Assembly: GCF_013408825.1 (NCBI RefSeq)
Contig: NZ_JACCBZ010000006.1
Coordinates: 124,001 to 188,000 of the forward strand
Direction: 5' to 3'
Length of the DNA: 64,000 nt
From: Mucilaginibacter tundrae
GTDB taxonomy: Bacteria; Bacteroidota; Bacteroidia; Sphingobacteriales; Sphingobacteriaceae
In this document: piece by piece, positions 12,713 to 28,680 of the stretch
Numbering within the stretch: position 1 is the first letter of the stretch
How the letters are laid out: each line of letters starts with the position of its first letter
The notes under the pieces: generated by a model
Databases searched by the model: none
What the model was told of the DNA's origin: nothing
The model's input: only the letters and a program-made list of their open reading frames with translations
Made by a program: the position numbers and the translations under genes

Positions 12713-14629
12713 TTATTGCTCCTCGATAACCAACATACTCCAGCCTTTACTGCCAGCGTTACTAAGTTCTTTCTTTTTATGATCCATAAGCTTTTTTATA
12801 CGTGTACTGTATGCCCAACACGTACTTTGACGTATGGCAACAATTTCTGATAACTTATGAGATGATATTTTGCCTTTGGTCGAGTACATCAAAAATATCA
12901 TGTAAAATGCTTTATTTATAGGGATACGAGTATTTTGTAATATCGTATAAGCGATAACCGACTCCTCGTAACCACATTTTGAGCACCGCCTGCTATATGG
13001 TAAGTGACCGTGACTGTAATGATCATTACTACACTTACGGCAGTTATAACCTTTTTCCCATTTAAGGTCCGATAAAAACTTAAAACAGGTTTCCCTATCA
13101 GGGTATATCCTGCTGAATTCTTCAAAATCTACCTGGGCAGACATTACCCTGTCATGCGTTACTTTCTCAATATTGGTATGTAAGGTAATATTGTCTTTCT
13201 CCAGCAACACGTTTATCCTTGAGATTTCTTCAGCCTGATCCTTTAATAATATATTAACGGATTTCAACTCTTCATTTTGCTCCTCTATTACCGCTGATTT
13301 TTCGACTAGCTCTTTTGTTCGTTCACGTACCTGGGCCTCCAACTGGCGGTTTAGGTTATCCTTAAACTCCTCATTTTGCTTCATTTGCCTAATGATACGG
13401 CGCTGCGCATAATCCTTTTTCTTTTTAAGGATACGGACCTTTTCACCAATGGCAAAGGAAATGAATAGCATTTCCATTATAAAGCAAAAACTAAGACTAT
13501 AATGGGTAATCGGGCCAAATGGCAACCATGAAACATCAAAAGCTATAAGTATTTTAATGAGAAAGCCTATAAACAGGAAACTATATCCCACCACAAAAAA
13601 ACGTGCAGGCCAGTATCCTTTATTCAAAATGTAATACCCTGTATAACAAGCTAACAGTAATGGAACAATTTCAACTATACGATAATTGAACCAATTATTA
13701 TCAACAGTTAAGCACAGTATAAAAAATATTGTACGTAACCCTATTACCAACCATATAAGTGTGTTTAGTTTTGGGGCTTTAACCTTTACATATAATAAGC
13801 TACGTGTAAACAGCATGCCAAATATGCTGGCAAAAAACAGCGCTACACCGTAGGCATACTGATTCCACACGGGCGAGTTTGGCCACAAATATTGATAAGC
13901 TATACCATCGGCACACATTTCATACAAACCAATGCTAAGGTTGTACATAATGTAATACAGATATTGTATTTGCCTGATGGCAAAAAACATCATTAAATTA
14001 TACAAGCTGAATACCAGCAGCATTCCGTAAAACACGCCAAAGAAAAAATACTCGTCTAATGCGTAGTGCACAAACCAACTCACAGAACGTAGCACCACAA
14101 TAACGTTTGCAGGCTGATGTGATTTTAAGCGGATATAGTAAGTATGCTCGCCATATAAATTGCTGTTAATATTAAGACTGAAGTTTTTATGCTGAAATAA
14201 CCGCTGTGAAAATGGCAAACTACTACCCATATGAGTTGACGAGTAGGTATTATCAGCATTGGGCGAAAATATTTCTATATCATCCGTAGTTTGATCAAAA
14301 AACTCTAATAACCAATTGTTTTTAGTGGCTTTATCATGATTGATTTTTATACGATACCAATAAATAGTATTTAGATCAGTTACTTTTGGATTGAAAATTT
14401 CGCTGGGTTTGAATGCTGAAGATACGGAAGAATCATTCCTTATCTGATCGAGCGTTAATTTTCCGCTTTTATCTTCAAGCGTTTCAATTTCATTGAATGA
14501 AAAATAATGCTGGGTGATGGTATCATTTAATGTAACTATTTTTTGCGCATGTGCATTTCCAGCTACAAACAGAATAAATAAAACATTAACAAATAATAAT
14601 CTTAGTAGATATTTACCCATATTATCCAA
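12713..14629 (-). CDS. 7TMR-DISM membrane sensor fused to an IS1595-type transposase DNA-binding domain
   Basis: A 638-residue protein with an unusual order of domains. A signal peptide (cleavage near AHAQ29) precedes an extracytoplasmic 7TMR-DISMED2-like beta domain (about 35-180) and seven transmembrane helices (about 193-395, 7TMR-DISM_7TM). A coiled coil runs over about 400-490. Residues 500-620 match the N-terminal part of IS1595-family transposases: FSRIYPDRETCFKFL, a CxxC-x15-CxxC zinc ribbon (Cys530, 533, 549, 552) and the helical part up to QSTCWAYSTRIKKLM. The protein ends about 30 residues later, without the DDE nuclease domain. It therefore looks like a membrane sensor using a captured transposase module to bind DNA or RNA. 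It lies 109 bp downstream of the GH5 gene on the same strand, so it may serve the beta-glucan locus. Confidence 0.82.
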   Translation of the reverse strand: MDNMGKYLLRLLFVNVLFILFVAGNAHAQKIVTLNDTITQHYFSFNEIETLEDKSGKLTLDQIRNDSSVSSAFKPSEIFNPKVTDLNTIYWYRIKINHDKATKNNWLLEFFDQTTDDIEIFSPNADNTYSSTHMGSSLPFSQRLFQHKNFSLNINSNLYGEHTYYIRLKSHQPANVIVVLRSVSWFVHYALDEYFFFGVFYGMLLVFSLYNLMMFFAIRQIQYLYYIMYNLSIGLYEMCADGIAYQYLWPNSPVWNQYAYGVALFFASIFGMLFTRSLLYVKVKAPKLNTLIWLVIGLRTIFFILCLTVDNNWFNYRIVEIVPLLLACYTGYYILNKGYWPARFFVVGYSFLFIGFLIKILIAFDVSWLPFGPITHYSLSFCFIMEMLFISFAIGEKVRILKKKKDYAQRRIIRQMKQNEEFKDNLNRQLEAQVRERTKELVEKSAVIEEQNEELKSVNILLKDQAEEISRINVLLEKDNITLHTNIEKVTHDRVMSAQVDFEEFSRIYPDRETCFKFLSDLKWEKGYNCRKCSNDHYSHGHLPYSRRCSKCGYEESVIAYTILQNTRIPINKAFYMIFLMYSTKGKISSHKLSEIVAIRQSTCWAYSTRIKKLMDHKKKELSNAGSKGWSMLVIEEQ

Positions 14630-14738: not shown

Positions 14739-15989
14739 TCATTTCCCGCTAACAAGCCCCAAAGCCTCAATATATCCTTTGTTTGGGGTACAGTTTTCAA
14801 ACTTGCAATTATCAAGCATATCAAATAAAGCTTTCTTTAGTTCTTCTCTATTTGCCGGTGCAGCTTTACGTATATCTTCAAAACTTACTCTCGGCGCTTC
14901 AGCATAAGCTATTACTTTATCATAATTAACAGGCATTTTAAAGGTAACTATGCCTGCTGAATTCTCCATCTTTTTATAAGGCCAATAATGCCATCCTATA
15001 TCGTTTTGTTCAAGCGTTACCCTGAAGTCATGTACCCATTCATCCTTATTTTCGCCTGTTTCGCCGCAGTATATGGGAACATTATATTTATTTCTAAAAT
15101 CAATATACTCCTGTATTACGTCGATGGTAGTAGTTTTTGTCCAATATTTATGAAATGTGTATATGATCTTCGAGTCGAACGGTGTACCAAACATATGCAT
15201 GTTGCTATCCCATTGCGCCCCTCCTAAAACTATTATATGGTTTTTATCAACCGTACGTATCGCCTTAGTGATTTCTTTATAAAAAGGTTCCAAATAATGA
15301 TTTAAACTATCAGCTTTAAAATAATGTGCAATTGGCTCGTTCAGTAAGTCATAACCAATAACCGCTGTTTCGTTTTTATAATGCGCAGCTATTCTTGTCC
15401 ATATTTGTATAGTTTGTTGTCTGCACACCGCGCTTTGAAAAAGGAACGGATAGCCATAACCATCATCAATATTATCACCAGTTTGGCCACCCGGAGCACA
15501 GTGCATATCTAATATAACATAAATACCCTCCTGTTTACACCAACCTATTACCCTATCTAATAGCTCAAACCCACGATCGGGGTTATTTTCGCCCAAATAA
15601 TCTTCGTCGGTAAAAAGTTTATAGTTAAATGGGATGCGAATTGAGTTCATCCCGGTAGATTTCAGGTAATGAATATCGGCGCGGGTAATATAGTTATCCA
15701 AGTATTTTTTCCAGAAAATTTTAGCATCCTCAGGACCTATCAATTCAGTAATCGCTTCATTAATGAGTTTTGGTGAATTGATTTTAGAAAATTTGAACAT
15801 ATAACCTTCGGGGATAAGCCAGTTACCCAAGTTAGTCCCCTTAATTAAAAATGGCTTTTTATCAGGGCCAATAACCCCTTTTCCACGTGTTGAGATGAAA
15901 CCATTAGATTGTGCTATTGCAGTAAATGGCGCAATTAAAACCAGTATTAAAAATAATGAGATTCGGATTTGTTTTTTAATGATCTTCAT
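14739..15989 (-). CDS. Secreted GH5 family glycoside hydrolase
   Basis: A 416-residue exported clan GH-A enzyme. The signal peptide ends near TAIAQ27. The start of the barrel (FLIKGTNLGNWLIPEGYMF) resembles exo-beta-1,3-glucanase-like GH5 enzymes rather than classical cellulases. The acid/base is Glu218 in YDLLNEPI and the nucleophile is Glu310 in IYCGETG, with HxPGG-like DMHCAPGG at about 161-168. It is the last enzyme gene of the minus-strand beta-glucan operon, 57 bp after the cytochrome gene. A beta-1,3- or beta-1,6-glucan substrate is inferred from the neighbours (GH16, two GH30, GH3); the subfamily cannot be settled by eye. Confidence 0.85.
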   Translation of the reverse strand: MKIIKKQIRISLFLILVLIAPFTAIAQSNGFISTRGKGVIGPDKKPFLIKGTNLGNWLIPEGYMFKFSKINSPKLINEAITELIGPEDAKIFWKKYLDNYITRADIHYLKSTGMNSIRIPFNYKLFTDEDYLGENNPDRGFELLDRVIGWCKQEGIYVILDMHCAPGGQTGDNIDDGYGYPFLFQSAVCRQQTIQIWTRIAAHYKNETAVIGYDLLNEPIAHYFKADSLNHYLEPFYKEITKAIRTVDKNHIIVLGGAQWDSNMHMFGTPFDSKIIYTFHKYWTKTTTIDVIQEYIDFRNKYNVPIYCGETGENKDEWVHDFRVTLEQNDIGWHYWPYKKMENSAGIVTFKMPVNYDKVIAYAEAPRVSFEDIRKAAPANREELKKALFDMLDNCKFENCTPNKGYIEALGLVSGK

Positions 15990-16046: not shown

Positions 16047-17258
16047 TTATTTTCGAGAAGCATCAGCATACACAGCTATATGATGGGTACGAACTAAATA
16101 CGGCACCTCTTTACCCTTACCTTCGGTTTCAATAGCAATAACACTTGATGGCCTTGCCGGCATATGGCAATCAATGCAATTATTTTTTATAGCAGCTCCC
16201 AATTTTGGCGCCATGGAGCAAAAATTATGATTCGCTATTGTATGGCAATTCATACATTTCTGCGAATACATAGCCAGATTTCCCCTTTCATTCCGATGTA
16301 CATTGTGGCAGGTAGCACAATCCATATTGCTATTTATGAAACATTTACTGCTGGCTAAAAGCTGACTTTGGTTAGCATGCACATCAAGCTTAGCTGAATC
16401 TACAGGTTTTTGATATGGAGGATTTTCAACAAAGTTGGCAAGATCATCACCCGGTTTAAACACAAATGTTGTTTTTAAGATCATGTTTTTGTTGCCTGAA
16501 TGACAAACCGCGCACATACTAATTTTTTGCGCGCGAGAGAGTGATGCATAAGTGGCTATATATTTGGCTTTCTTCTCCTCCGGAAATGCAGTTTGGTAAT
16601 TCACATGATTAGCTGACGGGCCATGGCAACGTTCGCAATCAATACCTAATATCAGAGAGTTTTTATCAAAGTTTTCTACATCCATGGAATGTAAACTTTG
16701 TGTTTCTGCCGGCAAATCTTTTATATAAGAGCTATGGCATTCAAAGCATCGCCTGCCAATCATTCTGCTGTAATTGGCATATGTTGAATCAAATCCGGGA
16801 CTATTAGTCCATCCCAATGACCTAAAATATGACATAGGCAACTGATACATCTGATTACCTTTCCAATATAAGTAGCTTTCAGCTTTTACACCGCCAAACG
16901 TAATATCAAAACGCTCGGCATTTATTTGCTTCCCGTTTGAATAAGCAACCTGGTATAAGCCATCAGCACGTTTTTCCATCACTACCTTTAAATCTTTACT
17001 AAAGTAAAAAGTATTATCGTGTGGACTAAAACTTCCTCCTATACTGTGTATATCAGCCAGGCGTGTTGTTGAAAAATGCGCTGTGTGAAGGTAATTGTCA
17101 TAAACATCCTTATGACACTTTATACAGGTTGATGAACCCGCGAAGATATCTCCCCGCGGGTCTGGTTTATCCTTATTTATTGTTAAGCATTGCGAAAAGA
17201 TAAAAACAAGCGGAACAATAAAAATTATTATTAAAAATAATTTACGATTACTTTTCAT
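16047..17258 (-). CDS. Seven-haem c-type cytochrome lipoprotein
   Basis: A 403-residue exported protein with seven CxxCH haem-attachment motifs: CIKCH, CFECH, CERCH, CAVCH, CATCH, CMNCH and CIDCH. The N-terminus is a lipoprotein signal with Cys24 in IFSQC, so it is probably membrane-anchored on the periplasmic side or surface-exposed. The layout resembles cytochrome c554-type multihaem electron-transfer proteins. It lies inside the beta-glucan operon, 37 bp after one GH30 gene and 57 bp before GH5 on the same strand, so it is likely cotranscribed with them. A redox role in polysaccharide breakdown is unexpected and unproven. No c-type maturation or oxidoreductase gene is nearby. Confidence 0.88.
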   Translation of the reverse strand: MKSNRKLFLIIIFIVPLVFIFSQCLTINKDKPDPRGDIFAGSSTCIKCHKDVYDNYLHTAHFSTTRLADIHSIGGSFSPHDNTFYFSKDLKVVMEKRADGLYQVAYSNGKQINAERFDITFGGVKAESYLYWKGNQMYQLPMSYFRSLGWTNSPGFDSTYANYSRMIGRRCFECHSSYIKDLPAETQSLHSMDVENFDKNSLILGIDCERCHGPSANHVNYQTAFPEEKKAKYIATYASLSRAQKISMCAVCHSGNKNMILKTTFVFKPGDDLANFVENPPYQKPVDSAKLDVHANQSQLLASSKCFINSNMDCATCHNVHRNERGNLAMYSQKCMNCHTIANHNFCSMAPKLGAAIKNNCIDCHMPARPSSVIAIETEGKGKEVPYLVRTHHIAVYADASRK

Positions 17259-17295: not shown

Positions 17296-18753
17296 CTATT
17301 GAACTATTAATGTTGTTATTGAATGTGGCAAACTGGTTGTATTAGCTGCCATACCTTTTATCCAAAGGTGATATGGCACTTTTTCATTGGTTAAATTTAA
17401 CACAATTACTACCAATTTGTTATCGCTATTTATAAATGCTGTTGTCATTAATTCATCACGGTTAGATGATGCGATAATACGTTTAGCTCCTGGCCTTATA
17501 AATTTTGAAAAATGGCCAATGTAATAGTAAGAATCCATGTAGGTTAACTCTCCGGTTTTAACGTTGGCATGTATTGGCGAAAAGCAGAAATTTCCAACAT
17601 GGTTAGGGCCCCCATATTCATCTAACAAAACATTCCAGTCTGTCCAGCCCACAACACCATTATTAAAATCGTTGACCATTGATTTTCCGTACAATTCGCC
17701 ATATTTCCAATCGTTAATTTTGCTGGCGTCATAAGTATCGCTGCAACCTTCTGTAAATAATAGGTTTTTATCAGGAAAAGCTTCATGTACACGTTTCACA
17801 TTTTCAAAATCGTCGTGCATATACCAATGGAATCCCGTACCCCAAACATATTTCGCTGCTTCTGGGTCCTCTAAAACAGTACTCGCGCGTTGATACATTA
17901 AGTCCCTGTTATGATCCCAGATAATTAGTTTCTTATCAGCTAAGCCACTTTTGTGTAATGTTGGGCCTAAATAATTCTTAACAAAATCGCGCTCATCTTC
18001 ACCAGTATAAATGCATGATTCCCATCTTTGATTAGCCATTGGTTCGTTTTGAACGGATAATCCCCATATTGGAATACCTTCTTTTTCATAAGCTTTAATA
18101 AACTTGACATAAAAATTAGCCCATGCCTGGTCATATTCAGGTTTAAGTTTACCGCCATGCAGCATGTCGTTATTAGTTTTCATGAATGCTGGTGGGCTCC
18201 ATGGAGTTGCAAACAAAGTTAAATTACCACCTGCTGCTGCAATTACCTGTTTAATAAATGGGATACGATATTTACGGTCGTGATCAATATTAAATGTTTT
18301 TAAAGCTTTGTCTCCATCGGCTACATAGCTATAAGTATCACTTGAAAAATCACAACTTTGAATATTCGTACGGCCTAATGAATAGCCAATACCAGTTTTC
18401 TTGTTATAATAAGCATTTAAAATTTCGTCTTGCTTTGCTTTTGGCAGCTTATAAAAAGTTTCGGCAGATGCATCTGTTAATGCACCTCCAATCCCTAAAA
18501 CGGATTGAAACGTTTTTGATGGATCAACAAAAATACAAACCTCTGTTTCAAGTGGTTGACCAAATTGCTTAAACGTTAATGTAGCTGTTTTAGTTATACG
18601 GTAATCGGTGTTTTGTGCCGTTGTATAAACCGATACCGTTTTATTAGCGGCTTGGTATGCTTTTGGATGAAGCGGAGATTTAGCTTTATTAGTTTGTGCA
18701 TTTACTAAAGTAGTGCACGAACATACTAAGGCTAGTATTAAAGATCTTTTCAT
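17296..18753 (-). CDS. Secreted GH30 beta-glycosidase
   Basis: A 485-residue exported enzyme with signal peptide ending near LVNAQ20. It has the GH30 hallmarks: VLGIGGALTDASAETF (about 85-100), the acid/base Glu in LSVQNEPMANQRWES, the nucleophile Glu in LLFTEGCSDT, and a C-terminal beta domain. Bacteroidota GH30 enzymes in loci with GH3 and GH16 are typically beta-1,6-glucanases or beta-glucosylases; that specificity is inferred from the setting. It is a distant paralogue of the lipoprotein GH30 at 20972. The next gene upstream, GH3, ends 38 bp before it, consistent with one operon. Confidence 0.9.
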   Translation of the reverse strand: MKRSLILALVCSCTTLVNAQTNKAKSPLHPKAYQAANKTVSVYTTAQNTDYRITKTATLTFKQFGQPLETEVCIFVDPSKTFQSVLGIGGALTDASAETFYKLPKAKQDEILNAYYNKKTGIGYSLGRTNIQSCDFSSDTYSYVADGDKALKTFNIDHDRKYRIPFIKQVIAAAGGNLTLFATPWSPPAFMKTNNDMLHGGKLKPEYDQAWANFYVKFIKAYEKEGIPIWGLSVQNEPMANQRWESCIYTGEDERDFVKNYLGPTLHKSGLADKKLIIWDHNRDLMYQRASTVLEDPEAAKYVWGTGFHWYMHDDFENVKRVHEAFPDKNLLFTEGCSDTYDASKINDWKYGELYGKSMVNDFNNGVVGWTDWNVLLDEYGGPNHVGNFCFSPIHANVKTGELTYMDSYYYIGHFSKFIRPGAKRIIASSNRDELMTTAFINSDNKLVVIVLNLTNEKVPYHLWIKGMAANTTSLPHSITTLIVQ

Positions 18754-18791: not shown

Positions 18792-20957
18792 TTACAATTC
18801 AGCTTTTCCATTTAGCCTGATATCGCGCGATGAGCTGCCAACAATAAAATCAAAAACTCCCGGATCCATTTCCCATTCGTTTTTTACATCATTAAAGTAT
18901 TTGAAGGCATCCTGATCAAGTGTTATCGTTACTGTTTTCTCTTCGCCTGCTTTTAAAAACACCTTTTCAAAACCTTTTAATTCTTTATCAGGGCGAGGCA
19001 AGTTTAATTTTTCTTGTTTCACATACAATTGTGCTACTTCAGCACCATCAACAGCACCGGTATTTTTCAGGGTAAATGTTACAGTAGCTTGTTTATTAGC
19101 AGCGCTTACTTGCAGATTGCTGTATTTAAAGGTGGTATATGACAAACCATGACCGAAAGCAAATTGCGGTTCAACATTGAAAGTATCGTAATAACGATAA
19201 CCAACATATATATCATCAAAATAATTTACTGTTGTTGAATCGCCGGGATATTGCCCCAGTTTAATAGCGGGAGCATCAGCTAATTTTTTTGGAAAACTTA
19301 CCGGTAACTTTCCTGAAGGATTAACCTGACCAAAGATGATCTTTGCTAGTGCATCACCACCTTCCATCCCAGGGTACCATGCTTGTATTATACCTTTTGC
19401 ATCACCTACCCATTGGGTTATATCCATTGGCCCACCACCCATTAATACTACCACTGTTTTAGGGTTAGCAGCAATTACAGCCTTAATCAACTCGTTTTGA
19501 CCGAACGGCATATCCATATTAGGTTTGTCAATTCCTTCGGCATCATAAGCATTATCGGCCCACACCTTATAATCGTAACCGTGTGTCCAACCGCCAACAA
19601 CTATTACCATATTAGCTTTTTTAGCTGCCTCCACAGCTTGTTGAATCAAGGCTTGATCCGGGCCAGCATCACGCACAATGTTATAACCTTTGCAATAAGT
19701 AATTTTCACCCTTTTACCGGCAATATTCTTTAATCCTTGTAAAGGAGTCACTTCATAAAATGCTTTTATTTGCGAGCTTCCGCCACCAAAAGCTTGTTTT
19801 CTATCAGCATTGTAACCTATTACCGCAATTGACTTTACGTTTGCCGCCAAAGGCAATATATTATCTTGGTTTTTGAGTAATACGATGCCTTCCTCTGCAA
19901 CTTTTTCTGCTGTTAGCTGATGTGCCTTTGTATTGTATTCACCTTTTTGCCGTTTTTGGCCGCCAAGCATATCGGTTTTATACATAACGTACAGTATGCG
20001 CCGTACTTTTTCATTAATAATATATTCAGGTATTTTACCTTCTTTAACTAAAGTAACTACAGTATCGCCCATAAAGAATTTACCATAATCAGGATGAGCA
20101 CCTAAACTAAGATCGGTGCCCATTTCAAGATCAGTGCCATTCCACAAAGCTTGAGTTGTGCTGTGAACAGCGCCCCAATCACTCATTACCAAACCTTTAA
20201 AGCCCCATTCTTTTTTCAGAATTTGATTTATAAGATAGTTGTTTTGCGTGGCCCATTGCCCTCTGAACTTATTGTATGAACCCATTAAAGTATTTACGCC
20301 GCCTTGCTGGACAGCAGCTTTAAAGCCAGGCAGATATATTTCACGCAGAGCACGCTCACTCATTTGTACATCTATGCTGTTACGTAAAGTTTCCTGGTTA
20401 TTACCGGCAAAGTGTTTTACGCAGGCTGATATTCCCTGATCTTGTACACCCTTAATATAACCTACTACCATTTTTGAAACTAAAAACGGATCTTCACTCT
20501 GGTACTCAAAGTTGCGGCCATTTAAAGGTGAACGCATTATGTTGATACCGGGACCTAAAATCACATCCTTACCCCTGAAATTTGCTTCGCTTCCTAATAC
20601 GGAACCAAACGCATACCCTAAGTTAGGGTTCCATGTTGATGCAAGACAAACTCCTGTTGGCAAATATGTTCCTGAATCGAGCACATTTTGCAAGTCAGTC
20701 CATCCTCTTCCATGCTCAACCCGGACTCCATGTGGACCATCAGATGTTACCAGCTCAGGTATACCTAAACGAGGTACCCCCCCTGAAGTAAAGGAAGAGC
20801 TAGCATGAATCATATTGACCTTTTCCTGCAAAGTCATCAGTTTTATAAGGCTATCAGATTTAAAGGCAATCTCAGCATCACTATACCGGGATTGAGCTTT
20901 TACAGAAAAAGGAGCTATTACGCAAAAGAGAAAAAGAAGTTTGAGTTTTGAATTCAT
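18792..20957 (-). CDS. Secreted GH3 beta-glucosidase
   Basis: A 721-residue exported exo-enzyme releasing glucose from beta-gluco-oligosaccharides. The signal peptide ends near SVKAQ22. The N-terminal barrel carries KHFAGNNQE and the nucleophile Asp260 in GLVMSDWGAVH. The middle alpha/beta sandwich (about 360-580) contains IAVIGYNADRKQAFGGGSS, and a C-terminal fibronectin III-like domain (about 625-715) ends the chain. Length and order match typical periplasmic Bacteroidota beta-glucosidases. It lies 14 bp after the upstream GH30 gene. In this locus it would finish oligosaccharides made by GH16 and GH30. Confidence 0.93.
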   Translation of the reverse strand: MNSKLKLLFLFCVIAPFSVKAQSRYSDAEIAFKSDSLIKLMTLQEKVNMIHASSSFTSGGVPRLGIPELVTSDGPHGVRVEHGRGWTDLQNVLDSGTYLPTGVCLASTWNPNLGYAFGSVLGSEANFRGKDVILGPGINIMRSPLNGRNFEYQSEDPFLVSKMVVGYIKGVQDQGISACVKHFAGNNQETLRNSIDVQMSERALREIYLPGFKAAVQQGGVNTLMGSYNKFRGQWATQNNYLINQILKKEWGFKGLVMSDWGAVHSTTQALWNGTDLEMGTDLSLGAHPDYGKFFMGDTVVTLVKEGKIPEYIINEKVRRILYVMYKTDMLGGQKRQKGEYNTKAHQLTAEKVAEEGIVLLKNQDNILPLAANVKSIAVIGYNADRKQAFGGGSSQIKAFYEVTPLQGLKNIAGKRVKITYCKGYNIVRDAGPDQALIQQAVEAAKKANMVIVVGGWTHGYDYKVWADNAYDAEGIDKPNMDMPFGQNELIKAVIAANPKTVVVLMGGGPMDITQWVGDAKGIIQAWYPGMEGGDALAKIIFGQVNPSGKLPVSFPKKLADAPAIKLGQYPGDSTTVNYFDDIYVGYRYYDTFNVEPQFAFGHGLSYTTFKYSNLQVSAANKQATVTFTLKNTGAVDGAEVAQLYVKQEKLNLPRPDKELKGFEKVFLKAGEEKTVTITLDQDAFKYFNDVKNEWEMDPGVFDFIVGSSSRDIRLNGKAEL

Positions 20958-20971
20958 TATTAGGGTGTATA

Positions 20972-22432
20972 TTATTTCCAGGTATAAGTTGCCACAGCGC
21001 CGCCGTTAAGTGTTGAGGTGACTAATTTTGATTTGTATTGAATATTAAAACTTGCAATGTTGCTACTATTATTTAATACAATAAGCACTTTAGAGCCATC
21101 CGGATTTTGAAAGGCAACGTTTGGAAACGCTGTTGAAGCATCGGAAGCGATTCTTATCGCGCCAGCTTTTACAAATTTGGATGCATGAGCTATAATATAG
21201 TAAGAAACATTACGTGTAAATGCTGACCCGCTTACAGTTACCGCGCCCTGGCATGTACTGCAACCACCTACAGTATGAGGGCCATAATTAGGATCAGAAG
21301 CTAAATTCCATTCTATAACGTTCCGGCTCCAATTACGCGTTGCACCAACAATTAAATTGGTTACGTGCCAATTTAAGTCACCACTAAAAGTTCCGGTTGA
21401 AAATGTAGCTTGCTCTGTAAAATAAATGTTTTTGTTAGGGAATGCTGTATGCACAGGAGTAAGTGCTGATATATCGCCCGCATACAAGTGAAATGCAGAC
21501 CCATCAACGTATTTATTCGCAGTTGCATCATTTAAAACATAAATTGGATATTCTGGGTGGTCGCAGTTATGATCATAGCAAATTATTTTTGTTGAAATGC
21601 CTGCCGTTTGAAAAGCGGGACCCAAATAATTACCTATAAAATTTGTTTCAGCAGTGTCAACCTCTAGCATAGCAGGGTTATTGTATGCATTTAATGGCTC
21701 ATTTTGTGGTGTCACTGCATCAATATTTATCCCTTGGGCCTTCATTGCCTGTATATACTTTACAAAGTAATTTGCATATACGCTGTAATATTGAGGTAAT
21801 AAACTACCACCTGACAGATTGTTATTAGTTTTCATCCACGCAGGTGCACTCCATGGGCAAGCTAATATTTTTATATTAGGATTTAAGGCGATTATCTTTT
21901 TTAATACAGGGATAAGGTCAGTTTCCATCGAGATGCTAAAATTCTGTAAGTTAACATCGGGAGTACTCGAATCGTCATAAGTAAATGGAGCCGTACTCAT
22001 ATCCGAAGCGCCGAGCGTAACTCTTATATAGCTGATATTAATACCGGTGCTATCAGTTGCAAAAAGTTCTTTTATAAGCGCATTGTTTTGTGTAGCAGGC
22101 ATAGCGTTTATTACCTGGGCGCTGCCACCAGTAAGCGCAAACCCAAAACCATCTATTGTTTGATAGGTAGTGGTTGAATCAACATTAATTGTTGTGTTTG
22201 AATTAGTAATTGTGTTAAACAGCAAACTAACATTTTGCTTAGCCAGTAATTGTGCTTGATCAGGCGTGGTTAGCCACATATTAACATCTGTTTTTACCGT
22301 TACCGGAGGGGTAACGACTGTGCCGCCCCCACCACCGCCTGTACTTGCCACTTTTTTACTGCAACTCATCAGCATAAAGGCAGCTAATCCTGTAAATAAT
22401 ATCGTAAACCTTGTATTTCGTATCGTTTTCAT
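20972..22432 (-). CDS. Lipoprotein GH30 glycosidase (candidate surface beta-1,6-glucanase)
   Basis: A 486-residue enzyme from the ATG at 22432. An in-frame ATG at 22453 would add seven residues before the signal peptide and is less likely. The lipobox is LMSC, followed by SKK and a polyglycine linker, so the enzyme is probably tethered to the outer membrane. GH30 features are TIDGFGFALTGGSAQVI, the acid/base Glu in VTPQNEPLNAYN, and the nucleophile Glu in IYFTEQATF. The surface anchor suggests it makes the first cuts in the polymer, while the soluble GH30 at 17296 acts on fragments. By analogy with known Bacteroides beta-1,6-glucan loci, beta-1,6-glucan is the favoured target. Confidence 0.9.
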   Translation of the reverse strand: MKTIRNTRFTILFTGLAAFMLMSCSKKVASTGGGGGGTVVTPPVTVKTDVNMWLTTPDQAQLLAKQNVSLLFNTITNSNTTINVDSTTTYQTIDGFGFALTGGSAQVINAMPATQNNALIKELFATDSTGINISYIRVTLGASDMSTAPFTYDDSSTPDVNLQNFSISMETDLIPVLKKIIALNPNIKILACPWSAPAWMKTNNNLSGGSLLPQYYSVYANYFVKYIQAMKAQGINIDAVTPQNEPLNAYNNPAMLEVDTAETNFIGNYLGPAFQTAGISTKIICYDHNCDHPEYPIYVLNDATANKYVDGSAFHLYAGDISALTPVHTAFPNKNIYFTEQATFSTGTFSGDLNWHVTNLIVGATRNWSRNVIEWNLASDPNYGPHTVGGCSTCQGAVTVSGSAFTRNVSYYIIAHASKFVKAGAIRIASDASTAFPNVAFQNPDGSKVLIVLNNSSNIASFNIQYKSKLVTSTLNGGAVATYTWK

Positions 22433-22474
22433 AAGTTTTCTCCAGTACACCATATCCTTACCTTTAGTTATTTA

Positions 22475-23338
22475 TTATTGTGTTTTATGAATTATGTTAA
22501 AGAAATGAACATAATCAACCTTCATTGATGTTGGGAAGGCTGTGGTATCAATCCCATCTATCCCACCCCAACTTCCACCTACAGCGATGTTCATTAATAA
22601 GTGAAATTTTTGATTGTAAGGCCATGTAGATGAGCCTTTGCCATCATTTACGTAAGTAAATACAAGGTTATCATCATAATATCCTCTAATGGCGTATGGT
22701 GTCCAGTCTTCACGATACAAATGGTATGCGGTTGAAGCTGTAGGAATATTCATAGTACTTGTTTTTGCATTTCCTGCAAAATATGTTGAATTATGCGCAC
22801 TAAAATGCACGTTGTTAGGATCGTACCCTACCATTTCCATAATGTCAACTTCACCTGAAGCCGGCCAGGCGCCGTAGGCATATGTATCAGGCAACATCCA
22901 TATCGCAGGCCATGTGCCCCTACCCGAAGGTAACATTGCTTTTACTTCAATACGACCATAGGTCATTGAAAATTTAGAAATCATTCTTGACGAAGTAAAG
23001 GCTTCGCCCCCTACACTTTGCTTTTTTGCTGTTATTGTTAACACATCATTGGCTACACTTGCATTGCCTAATGAATCTGTATAAAATTCAGATTCGCCAT
23101 TACCCCATCCACCACCGCCTAAATCATATGTCCATTTGGTTGGATCGGGTGTTCCGGTATTAGTGAATTCATCTACCCATACCGGCGTTGTTTCAAAACT
23201 CCAGTTGCTATCTACAGGAGCAGGAGGAGGTGTATAAACATATGATTTACCGCTATTTTGACTGCTTTTTGAGCATGATATTATGCTCGTGCTTAGCAAT
23301 ATTACTACTAATAACGATTTTGTTTTAAATCCCAACAT
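22475..23338 (-). CDS. Lipoprotein GH16 endo-beta-1,3-glucanase (laminarinase-like)
   Basis: A 287-residue lipoprotein (Cys22 in SIISC) with a short Pro-rich linker and a single GH16 jelly-roll domain. The catalytic motif GEVDIMEMVG gives nucleophile Glu163, helper Asp165 and acid/base Glu168. The form with an extra Met between Asp and Glu is that of laminarinases and lichenases, unlike kappa-carrageenases. The segment GTWPAIWMLP and a C-terminal MNIAVGGSWGG are also typical. It would cut beta-1,3-glucan at the cell surface. It is the first enzyme gene after SusD, separated from it by a hairpin at 23358-23385. Confidence 0.92.
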   Translation of the reverse strand: MLGFKTKSLLVVILLSTSIISCSKSSQNSGKSYVYTPPPAPVDSNWSFETTPVWVDEFTNTGTPDPTKWTYDLGGGGWGNGESEFYTDSLGNASVANDVLTITAKKQSVGGEAFTSSRMISKFSMTYGRIEVKAMLPSGRGTWPAIWMLPDTYAYGAWPASGEVDIMEMVGYDPNNVHFSAHNSTYFAGNAKTSTMNIPTASTAYHLYREDWTPYAIRGYYDDNLVFTYVNDGKGSSTWPYNQKFHLLMNIAVGGSWGGIDGIDTTAFPTSMKVDYVHFFNIIHKTQ

Positions 23339-23403: not shown

Positions 23404-24948
23404 TTAATTGGCGTAACCTGGGTTTTGAACCAGTTTTGTCGCGGCAAGATCTGTAAGTGGTATAGGTAACAATTCATTTGTACCAGATTTAAACCCTTTA
23501 AATGCAAGTGTAGCCGGAGCGTCTCCCCATCTAACCAAATCAAACCAACGGTGCCCTTCGGTTGCTAGCTCTAAACGGCGCTCGGCTTTAACGTTCGCCA
23601 TTGTTGCAGCTACAGGTGCTAAACCAACCCTTGCACGAACAGCATTAATTAACGCTGCGGCACGAGAGGCATCACCACCGCCTTGTAACAAAGCTTCAGC
23701 TTCCATCAGGTAAGTATCAGCCAAACGAATTTCAATATAGTCGTTAGGGTAGTTCAAGATATTAGTTCCCTGAGTTGACAGATATTTAGTTAATGGAGCA
23801 TATTTCACCATGAAGAAACCAGTATTTTGGTAACTTGCCTGGTAAGTTGTATGCTCAAGCGCAGCAAGGCTATCCATATTTAATATGGTATATCCATATC
23901 GTGGATCTTTTACGCCGCTACCATCGTACGGAGTAACGAAAGCATCATGTAATTGCTGAGTTATTGGGTTGAATCCCCAACCACCTGCATATACAGCATC
24001 GCCAAAGTTCCTAGGGCCAATCATTTCAGAATAAACACTTCCTTTAAATGCATCCCAATTGCTCCAAGTATAAGCCTGAGTGTTAGTGAAGTTGATTTCG
24101 AAAATTGATTCACTGTTAAATTTATTATCCGGGCTAAATATAGCTGGGTAGCTGGCTTGTAAATGATAACCGTAACCAGGGGTTGTACCACCAGGTGTGC
24201 CATTTATAATTGCAAACTCCTGGGCAGCTAAAGTATATTTTTGCTCGTATAAATAGACTTTACCCAACAGTGCAATTGCAGCACCTTGTGTTACACGTCC
24301 GCTTTCCGATGTGATTACAGTTTGCGGTAAATTAGGAATAGCTGCTTTTAAATCGTTTTCAATTTGCGTATATACATCGGCAGGTTTGGCCTGTGGTTGG
24401 TTATAAATAGTAGCCGGTGTAAGAGGCGCCGTAATTAATGGCACATTTTTAAATAATCTTTCCAGATCAAAATAATAGTGAGCACGTAAAAATTGGGCCT
24501 CAGCAGTGTATCTGCTTGCTAATGCTGCACTTAAACCCGGTACACCAGAAAGTTTTGACAATATTGTATTAGCACGGCTTACACCTAAAAAGTTAATAGG
24601 CCAATAACCATTTTGCGGTCCCGCAGCGGATGTTAACTGATAATCATTCCATAACTGCCAGTCAGGAGTATCGCTTGAACCACCACCACCTGCATAGCAG
24701 TCGTCAGAAGCTGCGTTTAACGGCCCACGTGGGTCTGTATAGGTTTGATCTATACCACCTGTTTCAGTAAGTAATGGGTCATACGCTGATGCTAAGCCTG
24801 CAAAAGCCTGATCAGGTGTTGAATAATAACTTTGTTCTGAAAACTCTCCTTTTGGGTTAAGTTGCAGAAACGATTTTTTGCAGGATACGAATACACTACT
24901 CATCCCCAGCAAGCTAACCGCTGTGTATTTAATATATCTTCTTTTCAT
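23404..24948 (-). CDS. SusD/RagB-family outer-membrane glycan-binding lipoprotein
   Basis: A 514-residue surface lipoprotein (Cys23 in FVSCKK) of the SusD family, which caps the SusC channel and binds oligosaccharides. Visible family features are the N-terminal FLQLNPKGEFSEQSYY, tetratricopeptide-like helices (AEAQFLRAHYYFDLERLF, about 165-182), and the C-terminal RLADTYLMEAEALL and RRLELATEGHRWFDLVRWGD. It follows its SusC partner by 29 bp. Beta-glucan binding is inferred from the downstream enzymes. Confidence 0.93.
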   Translation of the reverse strand: MKRRYIKYTAVSLLGMSSVFVSCKKSFLQLNPKGEFSEQSYYSTPDQAFAGLASAYDPLLTETGGIDQTYTDPRGPLNAASDDCYAGGGGSSDTPDWQLWNDYQLTSAAGPQNGYWPINFLGVSRANTILSKLSGVPGLSAALASRYTAEAQFLRAHYYFDLERLFKNVPLITAPLTPATIYNQPQAKPADVYTQIENDLKAAIPNLPQTVITSESGRVTQGAAIALLGKVYLYEQKYTLAAQEFAIINGTPGGTTPGYGYHLQASYPAIFSPDNKFNSESIFEINFTNTQAYTWSNWDAFKGSVYSEMIGPRNFGDAVYAGGWGFNPITQQLHDAFVTPYDGSGVKDPRYGYTILNMDSLAALEHTTYQASYQNTGFFMVKYAPLTKYLSTQGTNILNYPNDYIEIRLADTYLMEAEALLQGGGDASRAAALINAVRARVGLAPVAATMANVKAERRLELATEGHRWFDLVRWGDAPATLAFKGFKSGTNELLPIPLTDLAATKLVQNPGYAN

Positions 24949-24977: not shown

Positions 24978-27900
24978 TTATAAGGTAACATCAACACCAA
25001 CTCTAACTGTACGTGCGGTTGGGTATACACCCTCGTCAACACCGCCAGTATTCGCGTTACCACCCCAAACTTCAGGATCATATCCGTTATACTTTGTAAT
25101 GGTAAATAAGTTGTCGGCACCTACATAAACATGTAACCTGCTCATATCTAATTTAGTCATCATATTCTTAGAGAATGTATAACCTACTTGTAGCGTTTTG
25201 ATACGCAGATAAGAACCGCTTTGCAATAATGCACTTGACAGGTTTTTGTAGTTACCATTAGGATCATTATCTGATAATCTTGCAACGTTGGTATTTGTAT
25301 TAGTTGGAGTCCATGCGTCCAAGGCAGTAGTTGGATAATTTGCAGTAGCAATATCTAAACGACGATATTCCTGAAGTACCTTGTTACCTGAAACACCCTG
25401 ACCAAACACGCTTAGATCAAATTGTTTATAGGCAACATTAAAGTTAAATCCATACGTTAATGGTGGCAACGGACTTCCAAGGAACTGACGGTCACTTGGG
25501 CCAATCGGGCCATTGTCGGAAACACTTTGATAAATATAATCACCGGGTTTAGCACTAGGTTGCAATAAGTTACCATTTTTGTCTTTGTATGCATTAACCT
25601 GAGCCTGTGACTGGAATATACCAAGCACCTTATAACCGTAGAATTCAGCGTATGGATGGCCAACTTGTGACCGTTGAATTTGCGGTGTAAGTGAACCCTG
25701 CCAGCTATTATTAGGCGGCACTAAAAATGGAAGTACATTTAAATTGGTAACGGTATTTTTATTGTATGCAATGTTACCATTTAAGTTTAAGTGGAAATCT
25801 CCAACTTGTTTGTTATAACCTAATTGGAACTCAATACCTTTATTATCTATACCCCCGGCATTTTCAAATGCTTGGCCGCTAACACCCGCATAAGAAGGCG
25901 GATTTACCGATAACAATAATTGATCTGAGGCTTTATTATAATAATCAACAGTAAGCGTAAAGTCATGGAATAAAGTCGCATCTATGGCAATATCGGTAGA
26001 TTTATCTTTTTCCCATTGTAATGCAGCATTTGGTAATGAATTTGGACCATAGCCGGTAACTAATGTTTGTCCGCCTTGCTGACCATATACGTAGCTACCA
26101 ACTGAACCTACAATTGGAGTATATTGGAACGGAGATAATGCTAACTCATTACCCAAAATACCATACGACCCACGTAATTTTAAATTATCCACAAATGTAT
26201 TTTTGGGGAACCAATCCTCTTTGGTAATTACCCAACCAGCTGATATAGAGGGGAAAGTACCATAAACGTTATCACTACCAAATTTTGATGAACCATCGCG
26301 ACGGATGATGCCTTGTAAAAGGTATTTTCCATCATAGTCATAGCTTACACGACCAAAAAGTGAGGCAAGCGTTGATGGCTGAACATCTGAGCCATATCCA
26401 AAGCGATCGGCTTGTGGTAAATTAAAGTTAAAAGATGCTTGATTATAAGAGGTTATTGGCTCGCCGTAATTGGTATCTTGTACGGTTGTTCCACTTTCTT
26501 CTTCGGCGCTTTGGCCTACTAAAATAGTAAAATTATGTTTACCTATTGAACGGGCGTAAGTTGCTGTATTATCCCAGTTCCATTCCAAATTTTGATTCAT
26601 TTGGCGATACTGGTTATTTGTTGCGGGCGGAAGATTGGAATTATTCGCGTTCAAATAATAAAGCGGTGTGAATGATTCACTACCGTAAAATGATTGCTTG
26701 GCAGCAATTTCTGTTTTGATGGTTAAACCTTTTATAGGTTCAATTTGCAAATATGCATCACCTTGTAAGTTATGGGACCAGTTATAGTTACCATTTTGCA
26801 ATTGTTCAGCTGCAATCGGATTAACAATCTCATTGGCTACATAATTTGATATACCATAGGGTTGGCCTTGCGCATTCCTAAATATATATGGCGCATAGCT
26901 CGGATTAGTATAAGTTGAAGCGTTAGGTTGTCCGCTTACATTGGTAACCACAACAGGTGTAAGTGGGTCAAGGTTAATTGCATCACTCAATGGACCGCCA
27001 AATACACTATTTGTATTGAAATTAGTAGTGCTTCTGATATAAGCGTAGTTAAAGTTTTCGCCATAAGTTAACCAGCTTTTCGGCTTAGAACTTGTATTTA
27101 CTCTGAAGTTCATTCTTTTATAATCAGAATAAGCTGGAGTAACTATACCTTCTTGATTAAGATAACCTAAAGATGTAAAATAATTAGATTTATCTGTACC
27201 ACCGCTTATTGCAAGATTTTGTTGCATAATTGGCGCGTTACCAAATATTTGATCTTGCCAATTAGTACCAGTACCATATTGTGACGGATTAGCAAATGGC
27301 GCTGTGCCACCATCATTTGTTACAGACTCATTTCTTAACTCAGCATACTGTGTTCCATCTGCTAAGCCTACTTTTTTAGCAACAGATTGATTACCGTAGT
27401 AAAAATTGTAAGTAATTCTTGGTGTACCAATAGCACCTTTTTTGGTTGTGATTAAAACAACACCATTAGATGCGCGGGAACCATAAATAGCTGCAGAAGC
27501 ATCCTTAAGCACTTGTAGTGATTCGATATCATTTGGATTAATAGATTCATAACCACCGTTATCCCATATCTGACCGTCAACAACATATAAAGGAGAACCA
27601 TTTGTTAATGAGTTTTGACCTCTTATAATTACATTAGGGGCAGCGCCCGGTGCGCCTGAAGTTTGTGTTACAGTTACACCTGCAGCACGGCCTTCCAAAG
27701 CATCATCAACACGTAAAACTTGTTGATCTTTTAAATCAGCGGCTGAGACACCAGAAATTGCACCTGTAACAGTTGCTTTTTTCTGTGTCCCGTAACCTAT
27801 TACTACGACCTCATTTAAGTCGGTTGTATTTTCTTGTAAGCTAACGTTAATTACCATTTGGTTATTTACAGCAACTTCTTTTGCATTATAACCAACAAAT

Positions 27901-28118
27901 GTAAATCTTAATGTTCCGTCTACTGGTGCATTGATGCTGAAGTGGCCGTTAGCATCAGTTTGAGTACCAATAGTAGTCGCCTTTAATGTTACAGTAACAC
28001 CTGGCAACGCAGCTCCTGTTTTATCAACAACTGTTCCTTTCACAGTGATGTTTTGAGCTAGGGCAACTGATATGCCCGATAACAGGAAAATGAATAAAAT
28101 TGTAATTGTTTTTCTCAT
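24978..28118 (-). CDS. SusC-family TonB-dependent outer-membrane transporter
   Basis: A 1046-residue TonB-dependent porin. The signal peptide ends near ALAQ22, followed by a carboxypeptidase-regulatory-like domain (about 25-110), a TonB-box-like region NEVVVIGYG, a plug domain with DALEGRAAGVTVTQTSG and VVDGQIWDN, and a 22-strand barrel ending in TARTVRVGVDVTL. With the adjacent SusD it imports oligosaccharides using TonB energy. It is the first gene of the beta-glucan operon. A well-formed promoter lies about 170 bp upstream at 28299-28331. Confidence 0.94.
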   Translation of the reverse strand: MRKTITILFIFLLSGISVALAQNITVKGTVVDKTGAALPGVTVTLKATTIGTQTDANGHFSINAPVDGTLRFTFVGYNAKEVAVNNQMVINVSLQENTTDLNEVVVIGYGTQKKATVTGAISGVSAADLKDQQVLRVDDALEGRAAGVTVTQTSGAPGAAPNVIIRGQNSLTNGSPLYVVDGQIWDNGGYESINPNDIESLQVLKDASAAIYGSRASNGVVLITTKKGAIGTPRITYNFYYGNQSVAKKVGLADGTQYAELRNESVTNDGGTAPFANPSQYGTGTNWQDQIFGNAPIMQQNLAISGGTDKSNYFTSLGYLNQEGIVTPAYSDYKRMNFRVNTSSKPKSWLTYGENFNYAYIRSTTNFNTNSVFGGPLSDAINLDPLTPVVVTNVSGQPNASTYTNPSYAPYIFRNAQGQPYGISNYVANEIVNPIAAEQLQNGNYNWSHNLQGDAYLQIEPIKGLTIKTEIAAKQSFYGSESFTPLYYLNANNSNLPPATNNQYRQMNQNLEWNWDNTATYARSIGKHNFTILVGQSAEEESGTTVQDTNYGEPITSYNQASFNFNLPQADRFGYGSDVQPSTLASLFGRVSYDYDGKYLLQGIIRRDGSSKFGSDNVYGTFPSISAGWVITKEDWFPKNTFVDNLKLRGSYGILGNELALSPFQYTPIVGSVGSYVYGQQGGQTLVTGYGPNSLPNAALQWEKDKSTDIAIDATLFHDFTLTVDYYNKASDQLLLSVNPPSYAGVSGQAFENAGGIDNKGIEFQLGYNKQVGDFHLNLNGNIAYNKNTVTNLNVLPFLVPPNNSWQGSLTPQIQRSQVGHPYAEFYGYKVLGIFQSQAQVNAYKDKNGNLLQPSAKPGDYIYQSVSDNGPIGPSDRQFLGSPLPPLTYGFNFNVAYKQFDLSVFGQGVSGNKVLQEYRRLDIATANYPTTALDAWTPTNTNTNVARLSDNDPNGNYKNLSSALLQSGSYLRIKTLQVGYTFSKNMMTKLDMSRLHVYVGADNLFTITKYNGYDPEVWGGNANTGGVDEGVYPTARTVRVGVDVTL

Positions 28119-28680
28119 GAATAATAAATTAATAATTGGTTTATGATTGTGTTTTAGGTTTGTTCTTTAATAGAAATAAAAGAACGTACACCGGCTGCTA
28201 GCCGTAACTAGTTAAATAGTACAGTTGGTTGTTCATACTTGGTTAATTAATAAAAAAATGCACAGGTTTTTACTTAGGTTATCCTGTATTGGTTGCATCA
28301 AACTTATGAAAGTTTGAAATAAAAAAACAAATTTATTTTTCATAAATAGTTGATTTTAAGTACTTTATGTTCATTTTGAAACGCTTCAATCACAATGATA
28401 TAAATCAATTTATGCTTGATAATCAGTCAAAAAGCTTATTTAAAAGATTTAAATCAAAAAAAACGATACGCTTTGTTCCAGCTTATTTTTTTTTACACAA
28501 TCTGCCTTTAAATGGGTATTAAAGCCGATTTACTTAGGTGTAATGGATGAGAAAGTGGCTAAATTGATGCTACAAGAATACTATAAAATGCGTATTTTAC
28601 TAAATATGCTTAACGGTTTAGCAGAAAAACCAGGATAATACAACCAATATATTCAGTAAGATACCCTAATATAAAGGCAC
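28119..28680. other. Intergenic region with SusC leader and a possible 31-codon ORF
   Basis: About 560 bp between the beta-glucan SusC gene and the terminator of the alpha-glucan GH13 gene. It contains a promoter at 28299-28331 and a leader of about 175 nt. On the plus strand a 31-codon frame (28543-28638; begins MDEKVAKLMLQEYYKMRILL) has reasonable composition and stays open upstream, without a start, to about 28454. It could be a small gene or a gene remnant; no family is recognised and confidence in it alone is about 0.2. Confidence 0.4.
28299..28331 (-). promoter_or_regulatory. Promoter of the beta-glucan susC operon, with overlapping palindrome
   Basis: On the minus strand TTTG (28328-28331) and an exact -7 element TAAGTTTG (28299-28306) are 21 bp apart, the expected Bacteroidota -33/-7 spacing. 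The -7 element overlaps a perfect inverted repeat CAAACTT-ATGA-AAGTTTG (28299-28316), a candidate operator. Transcription would start near 28293, giving a leader of about 175 nt. Confidence 0.5.

Follow-up and report, generated by a model that had tools for sequence, protein, structure and literature searches.

An IS1595-type DNA-binding head on a 7TMR-DISM receptor: a predicted one-component regulator of polysaccharide-utilization loci in Bacteroidota

A 2013 paper (PMC3878776) names SusR-like proteins, hybrid two-component systems (HTCS) and extracytoplasmic function (ECF) sigma/anti-sigma factors as regulators of polysaccharide-utilization loci (PULs). SusR is described there as membrane-bound, sensing in the periplasm and carrying its DNA-binding domain in the cytoplasm; its sites are predicted to be direct repeats with a spacing of 67 or 77 bp, while those of HTCS lie 21 bp apart on average. 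Here we describe a gene found in 64,000 nucleotides of Mucilaginibacter tundrae (contig NZ_JACCBZ010000006.1, positions 124,001 to 188,000), referred to below as the window. This gene (working name FUS, used for gene and protein alike; window 12713-14629, minus strand) joins a 7TMR-DISM receptor to the zinc ribbon and helix-turn-helix (HTH) of IS1595-type transposases and lies beside the genes of a PUL. We are fairly confident that FUS is a one-component inner-membrane transcription factor for this beta-glucan PUL, SusR-like in action and with an unrelated DNA-binding domain. In the open-licence literature we found no description of such a fusion, of 7TMR-DISM proteins at PULs or of experiments on the family.

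The FUS frame is open throughout (Table 1), its likely start being the ATG at 14620, nine bases inside the TTG named earlier. Both receptor domains score far above their Pfam cut-offs, the DISMED2 domain with 101.8 bits against 22 (PF07696) and the seven-helix domain with 147.1 bits against 29 (PF07695). Matches of the C-terminal part to IS1595 profiles stay below threshold: Zn_ribbon_IS1595 (Pfam) aligns with residues 509-551 at E 7e-4 and 20 bits (cut-off 25.4), and transpos_IS1595 (NCBIfam) with residues 563-618 at E 3e-6 and 27 bits (cut-off 75), covering positions 1-59 of its 215. The zinc cysteines C527, C530, C546 and C549 form the pattern C-x2-C-x15-C-x2-C and are invariant across 16 aligned sequences, the window's included, as is the string IRQSTCW. 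No DDE catalytic domain is present in FUS, which ends at residue 635, and none of the 16 sequences runs longer. The original prediction, a receptor running in one frame into a CxxC-x15-CxxC zinc ribbon and a helical segment without DDE nuclease, is confirmed. A structure model of the C-terminal part (mean pLDDT 86) displays a three-helix HTH; confidence is lower for the full-length model (pLDDT 77, pTM 0.49), which has long helices joining the membrane and DNA-binding parts.

Conservation of FUS climbs toward the C-terminus. Mean pairwise identity among the 16 sequences is lowest for DISMED2 (0.44) and rises through the membrane part (0.58) and linker (0.61) to the two best-conserved parts, the zinc ribbon (0.66) and the HTH (0.72). 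This gradient, together with the invariant cysteines and IRQSTCW, speaks against the idea that FUS signals by protein contacts, its zinc ribbon and HTH having lost DNA binding and become a dimer or partner domain. Although DNA binding is itself a prediction and the zinc-ribbon match of the window lies below the Pfam cut-off, we hold this idea to be quite improbable.

Since the window's own IS1595 matches are sub-threshold, the link was examined further. Each of the 14 sequences in alignment A2, the window's among them, matches the zinc ribbon profile with E <= 1 (best 2.5e-7), and five further relatives divide into three that pass the cut-off, one below it and one unmatched. Profile-profile comparison of the FUS DNA-binding part with seven IS1595 transposases gave a probability of 99.95 (E 1e-38) over 123 columns. 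The match foreseen for residues 500-620 is thus present in the window below threshold, and the IS1595 link itself is backed by the relatives and by this comparison.

The DNA-binding part was analysed by maximum likelihood in a tree of 72 rows (39 of 86 fusions left after a 90% identity filter; midpoint root for drawing). The fusions form one group with support 89/66, recovered in 90% of 200 bootstrap trees, and the fork uniting this group with an IS1595 subgroup has support 97/80. A single capture of the IS1595 head by the receptor is likely; it is not proven, because a stand-alone protein (L132) branches beside the fusions on a long branch. The source genome carries one FUS copy and two ordinary 307-aa IS1595 transposases. 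Tree, profile comparison and conservation together bear out the earlier proposal that a captured IS1595 DNA-binding module forms the output of a membrane sensor. The clustering with transposases might also be read as a sign that FUS is a remnant or helper of transposition and not a regulator; with the DDE domain absent, the PUL context conserved and the sequence strongly conserved across many species, we give this next to no probability.

It is also very improbable that FUS is a SusR family member with a diverged DNA-binding domain. No match to DUF6377, which we take to be the SusR domain, was found in FUS (PF19904, E <= 1), and comparison with three DUF6377 C-termini gave an hhalign probability of 1.3 over 24 columns, against 99.95 in the IS1595 comparison. 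Three DUF6377 proteins of the source genome exceed the cut-off, one of them in the window, and their C-termini have no profile relation to FUS. What the two do share is the plan of periplasmic sensor, membrane part and C-terminal HTH, and the operators predicted for SusR-like proteins are likewise direct repeats with a wide spacing, of 67 or 77 bp (PMC3878776).

Further IS1595-type proteins were seen elsewhere. Membranihabitans marinus (G406) has twelve IS1595-type matches of ~305-340 aa in one genome; the eight sequences read (L125-L131, L134) seem to have lost DDE residues, and SusC/SusD are absent from seven of the ten 20-kb stretches examined. Judging by these sequences, a second domestication is possible. 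In G446, a stand-alone 185-aa IS1595-type zinc-ribbon/HTH protein (L133/L167) lies directly after the gene of a glycoside hydrolase (GH) of family GH5 in a SusCD locus.

The fusion is not peculiar to one assembly. A FUS relative is encoded at 54 loci of other assemblies, in 52 of them as a single frame, so that an assembly join, named at the outset along with a frameshift as a possible source of the fusion, is excluded. The exceptions are L024, truncated by a contig end, and L045, with an early stop; L046 requires a non-ATG start. Among 989 homologues of the C-terminal part, all of the 120 listed carry both 7TMR Pfam domains in precomputed annotation, and two of these 120 are annotated with PF12760. 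Fusion-grade matches (E <= 1e-50) were found in 113 of 250 genomes of an order survey and in 10 of 345 genomes of a phylum sample, where they fall into families f1, f2, f8 and f9. The survey of Bacteroidota called for earlier thus finds the same architecture in four families, the window's own among them, with linkage to PULs conserved.

In the window, FUS closes a run of nine genes on one strand, namely SusC, SusD, GH16, GH30, GH3, GH30, cytochrome c, GH5 and FUS, with gaps of 14-109 bp; the distance of 109 bp between GH5 and FUS is as first reported. By the specificities of its families, the enzyme set presumably points to a beta-1,6/1,3-glucan as substrate. In the closest relatives FUS is flanked by the same genes, and in more distant ones FUS often stands directly before SusC-SusD. 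After removal of duplicates, a PUL gene lies at most five genes away in 79 of 83 distinct FUS genes and at most two genes away in 75; SusC or SusD is found within five genes in 34, and SusC is the next downstream gene on the same strand in 20. Before removal, 81 of 86 FUS genes were near a PUL gene. Four copies have no PUL gene within five genes (L018, L024, L028, L043), the contig ending at L018 and L024. As PUL genes were labelled with profiles derived from those of the window, these counts overlook PUL enzymes of other kinds. SusD genes number 9 (G430), 21 (source genome) and up to 84 (G016) per genome; accordingly, genomes differ in how far linkage may arise by chance, from little to a non-negligible extent. 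Duplicates and near-duplicates form seven pairs (L013/L138, L016/L020, L030/L261, L036/L141, L043/L135, L046/L136, L047/L153); this duplication is removed from the 83-gene linkage counts and the 82-locus spacing counts below, and is partly contained in the 86-gene count and in the position-model counts. A multihaem cytochrome c-like gene also occurs inside the related PULs L048, L054, L151 and L251.

By reading the gaps between FUS and SusC, we recognised the sequence AAGCGTATYA, often present twice. The candidate operator consists of two such sites in tandem on one strand, separated by 74-96 bp and located ahead of SusC, GH30 or GH3; the consensus across relatives is TGnGannnAAGCGTATCA twice, followed after the second copy by TAttaATCAgTtATTTAtg. 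The window pair lies on the strand of the SusC gene of the PUL, 355 bp upstream of that gene, and is followed by the promoter-side element. A relaxed pair pattern, written after the sites had been seen, has three matches in the 4.83-Mb genome, one of them this pair.

Position models trained without the window, on three training sets, were scored on both strands of its 64 kb. Under all three, 28377-28473 ranks first, with scores of 49.6 (next 14.8), 53.8 (next -2.3) and 57.4 (next -4.2). The best score among 33 control loci without fusion (427 kb) was 2.0; these come largely from other families and may for that reason differ in base composition. In two cross-tests, covering 34 and 21 loci, the top match was followed at a distance of at most 600 bp by a PUL gene or FUS in 32 and 18 loci respectively, both misses of the first test (L006, L007) being stretches that end inside SusD. 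The set called Pedobacter-type (20 loci) also takes in a few Mucilaginibacter loci (L137, L139, L254). A near-exact pair is lacking in 35 FUS loci, the window among them. Eight of these score above 15, in every case ahead of SusC, GH30 or GH3. The remaining 27 score 15 or less; among them are L004-L010, which end before the SusC promoter, and seven f8 or f9 loci.

Exact AASCGTATYA pairs at 74-96 bp occur in 26 of 82 distinct FUS loci, against 0, 0, 0, 0, 0, 0 and 1 at seven other spacing ranges. Allowing at most one mismatch in all gives 50 loci against 0 to 2, and at most two mismatches 60 against 8 to 16. Within the range, spacings bunch near 77-79, 86-88 and 91-92. Across the 250 genomes of the order survey, an exact pair is present in 47 of 113 genomes with FUS and in 6 of 137 without it (Fisher 3e-13); as a control, the pattern read backwards matches in six genomes of the 250. 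Distances were taken among the FUS matches listed (at least 150 places): of 58 pairs, 42 have a listed FUS within 20 kb and 34 have one within 1.5 kb, all of these 34 being downstream of FUS and on its strand.

Nine pairs in FUS-bearing genomes are more than 20 kb from a listed FUS. Four overlap other open reading frames (ORFs) and five precede PUL genes: SusC (G048, G134, G024), GH3-GH30 (G106) and GH30-GH16 (G017). These five are candidate trans targets. Genomes without FUS contain seven pairs, of which three were inspected; two lie within ORFs, and the third (G208) overlaps the beginning of one ORF, with a second ORF downstream of it. The best composite score is below 0 in each of these three stretches. 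At L143 and L144 the pair precedes FUS itself, which suggests that these copies are autoregulated. Pairs with 74-bp spacing were also seen at L252 (G073) and L262 (G032). They precede ORFs of 190 and 388 aa, located near the same PUL, that perhaps encode an ECF sigma factor and its anti-sigma factor.

Could another factor serving these loci bind the tandem sites, FUS being a genuine PUL-linked sensor all the same? For this reading it can be said that binding by FUS is a prediction, and that the pair is absent from f8 and f9 loci; f9 loci have at most single sites though they keep the HTH signature RQxTCW. The sites could not be traced to transposon ends, a search made on account of a close IS (L195) ending in TAGGCTATTAA: none of 20 ends from ten elements beats shuffled sequences (p 0.18 to 0.98), and descent of the operator from IS1595 terminal repeats is not supported. 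No convincing shared tandem motif was found within the f8 or f9 families; at L118 and L119, AAGTGTATA and AAGCGTATA were noticed by eye once each between FUS and GH3, too few to count. In the phylum sample exact pairs form a background of 5 in 345 genomes, with none in the 10 fusion genomes and no fusion in the 5 exact-pair genomes; one-mismatch pairs are present there in L117 (f2) and L149 (G005).

Nevertheless, pairs follow the presence of FUS, near pairs are all downstream of it on its strand, and in two loci they stand before FUS itself. RQxTCW is kept by f1, f2, f9 and close transposases and lost in f8. Families f1 and f2 thus have signature and sites together, and f8 loci have neither; the loss in f8 would explain the missing pair there, f9 not being covered. 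The recognition helix seems to vary in step with the operator between f1 and f2 on one side and f8 on the other, a pattern into which f9 does not clearly fall. We regard a separate binding factor as unlikely and FUS as the protein that would occupy the sites.

Starting from the architecture of FUS, the descent of its head, its PUL linkage and the operator-like pair, all plain from the DNA, we propose the following mechanism. The periplasmic DISMED2 domain would sense a breakdown product, and the signal would travel via the seven helices and then the coiled coil; the latter would also dimerise FUS. The output would be two zinc-ribbon/HTH heads, whose descent from an IS1595 transposase is given by tree and profiles, one head per site at the two tandem AAGCGTATYA sites ~87 bp apart upstream of SusC. 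Bound FUS would most likely activate the operon SusC-SusD-GH16-GH30-GH3-GH30-cytochrome-GH5-FUS; gene order, strand and small gaps are consistent with a single transcript of the nine genes. Being the last gene of this operon, FUS would positively feed back on its own expression. Control of the beta-glucan locus by FUS, raised at first as a mere possibility, is now supported by the conserved PUL linkage and by the operator-like pair at the SusC promoter.

Table 1. FUS, its domains, the neighbouring PUL genes and the operator-like sites, in window coordinates
Feature	Position	Strand	Basis or remark
FUS gene	12713..14629	-	likely CDS 12713-14620 from ATG, 635 aa
7TMR-DISMED2 extracytoplasmic sensor domain, residues 44-177	14090..14491	-	Pfam E 4e-29
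7TMR-DISM seven-helix membrane domain, residues 190-393	13442..14053	-	Pfam E 9e-43
Long helical (coiled-coil-like) linker, residues 394-492	13145..13441	-	structure model helices 370-446 and 455-493; middle part of low confidence
IS1595-type zinc ribbon, residues 509-551	12968..13096	-	Pfam, invariant cysteines, profile-profile comparison
IS1595-type HTH, residues 563-618	12767..12934	-	NCBIfam, structure model, profile-profile comparison
GH5	14739..15989	-	domain annotation
Multihaem cytochrome c-like protein within PUL	16047..17258	-	domain annotation
GH30	17296..18753	-	domain annotation
GH3	18792..20957	-	domain annotation
GH30	20972..22453	-	domain annotation
GH16	22475..23338	-	domain annotation
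SusD-like glycan-binding protein	23404..24948	-	domain annotation
SusC-like TonB-dependent transporter	24978..28118	-	plug and carboxypeptidase-regulatory domains
Promoter-side element TTAAAATCAACTATTTATG	28341..28359	-	fits relatives' consensus TAttaATCAgTtATTTAtg
Proximal operator-like site AAGCGTTTCA	28377..28386	-	87 bp from distal site
Distal operator-like site AAGCGTATCG	28464..28473	-	read 28473-28464

Somewhat less firmly, we lean towards regarding proteins of this kind as a fourth class of PUL regulator in Bacteroidota: receptors with a transposase head, probably from one capture, present in at least four families, membrane-anchored and bridging two operators about eight helix turns apart. 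If this is true, PULs have a further type of regulator, built by domesticating a transposase head, and a bacterial capture of a transposase as transcription factor has here been joined to a transmembrane receptor. Regulons, trans targets included, would become predictable in many soil Bacteroidota. Because an operator is predicted, the regulatory role of FUS is directly testable.

How does FUS compare with known systems? By Pfam its sensor and membrane domains are full members of the 7TMR-DISM receptors (PF07695, PF07696), whose usual outputs are kinases, cyclases and HTH domains; it differs from them by a DNA-binding output derived from a transposase. With IS1595 transposases, among which it groups, it shares a zinc ribbon and HTH homologous across 123 columns; unlike them it has no DDE domain and is fused to a receptor, and its operator is not significantly like the transposon ends sampled. 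ECF sigma/anti-sigma genes sit just upstream of SusC-SusD. Such pairs also control PULs (PMC3878776); FUS instead is a single protein, with no sigma70 or FecR domain at E <= 1 (Pfam, NCBIfam). HTCS resemble FUS in being PUL sensors in the membrane and in having direct repeats as their predicted operators (PMC3878776); no histidine kinase, receiver or AraC match was obtained for FUS in the same databases at E <= 1.

The window also contains a DUF6377 protein of 571 aa with TPR repeats (L265, 43051-43830, minus strand), beside a GH13 gene and near SusC/SusD. It is probably a SusR-like regulator at a starch-type PUL, DUF6377 again being taken as the SusR domain.

The closest analogues of FUS are the SusR-like regulators (SusR, BT3705 and paralogues), which are likewise one-piece membrane proteins with a periplasmic sensor and a cytoplasmic DNA-binding domain, encoded beside SusC/SusD. 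The sensor of FUS is of the 7TMR-DISM type, whereas the DUF6377 proteins of the source genome carry TPR repeats, and its head, an IS1595 zinc ribbon/HTH, has no match to DUF6377 at profile level. The operators are again alike in kind: direct repeats with a long spacer, of 67 or 77 bp as predicted for SusR-like proteins (PMC3878776), and of 74-96 bp at FUS loci.
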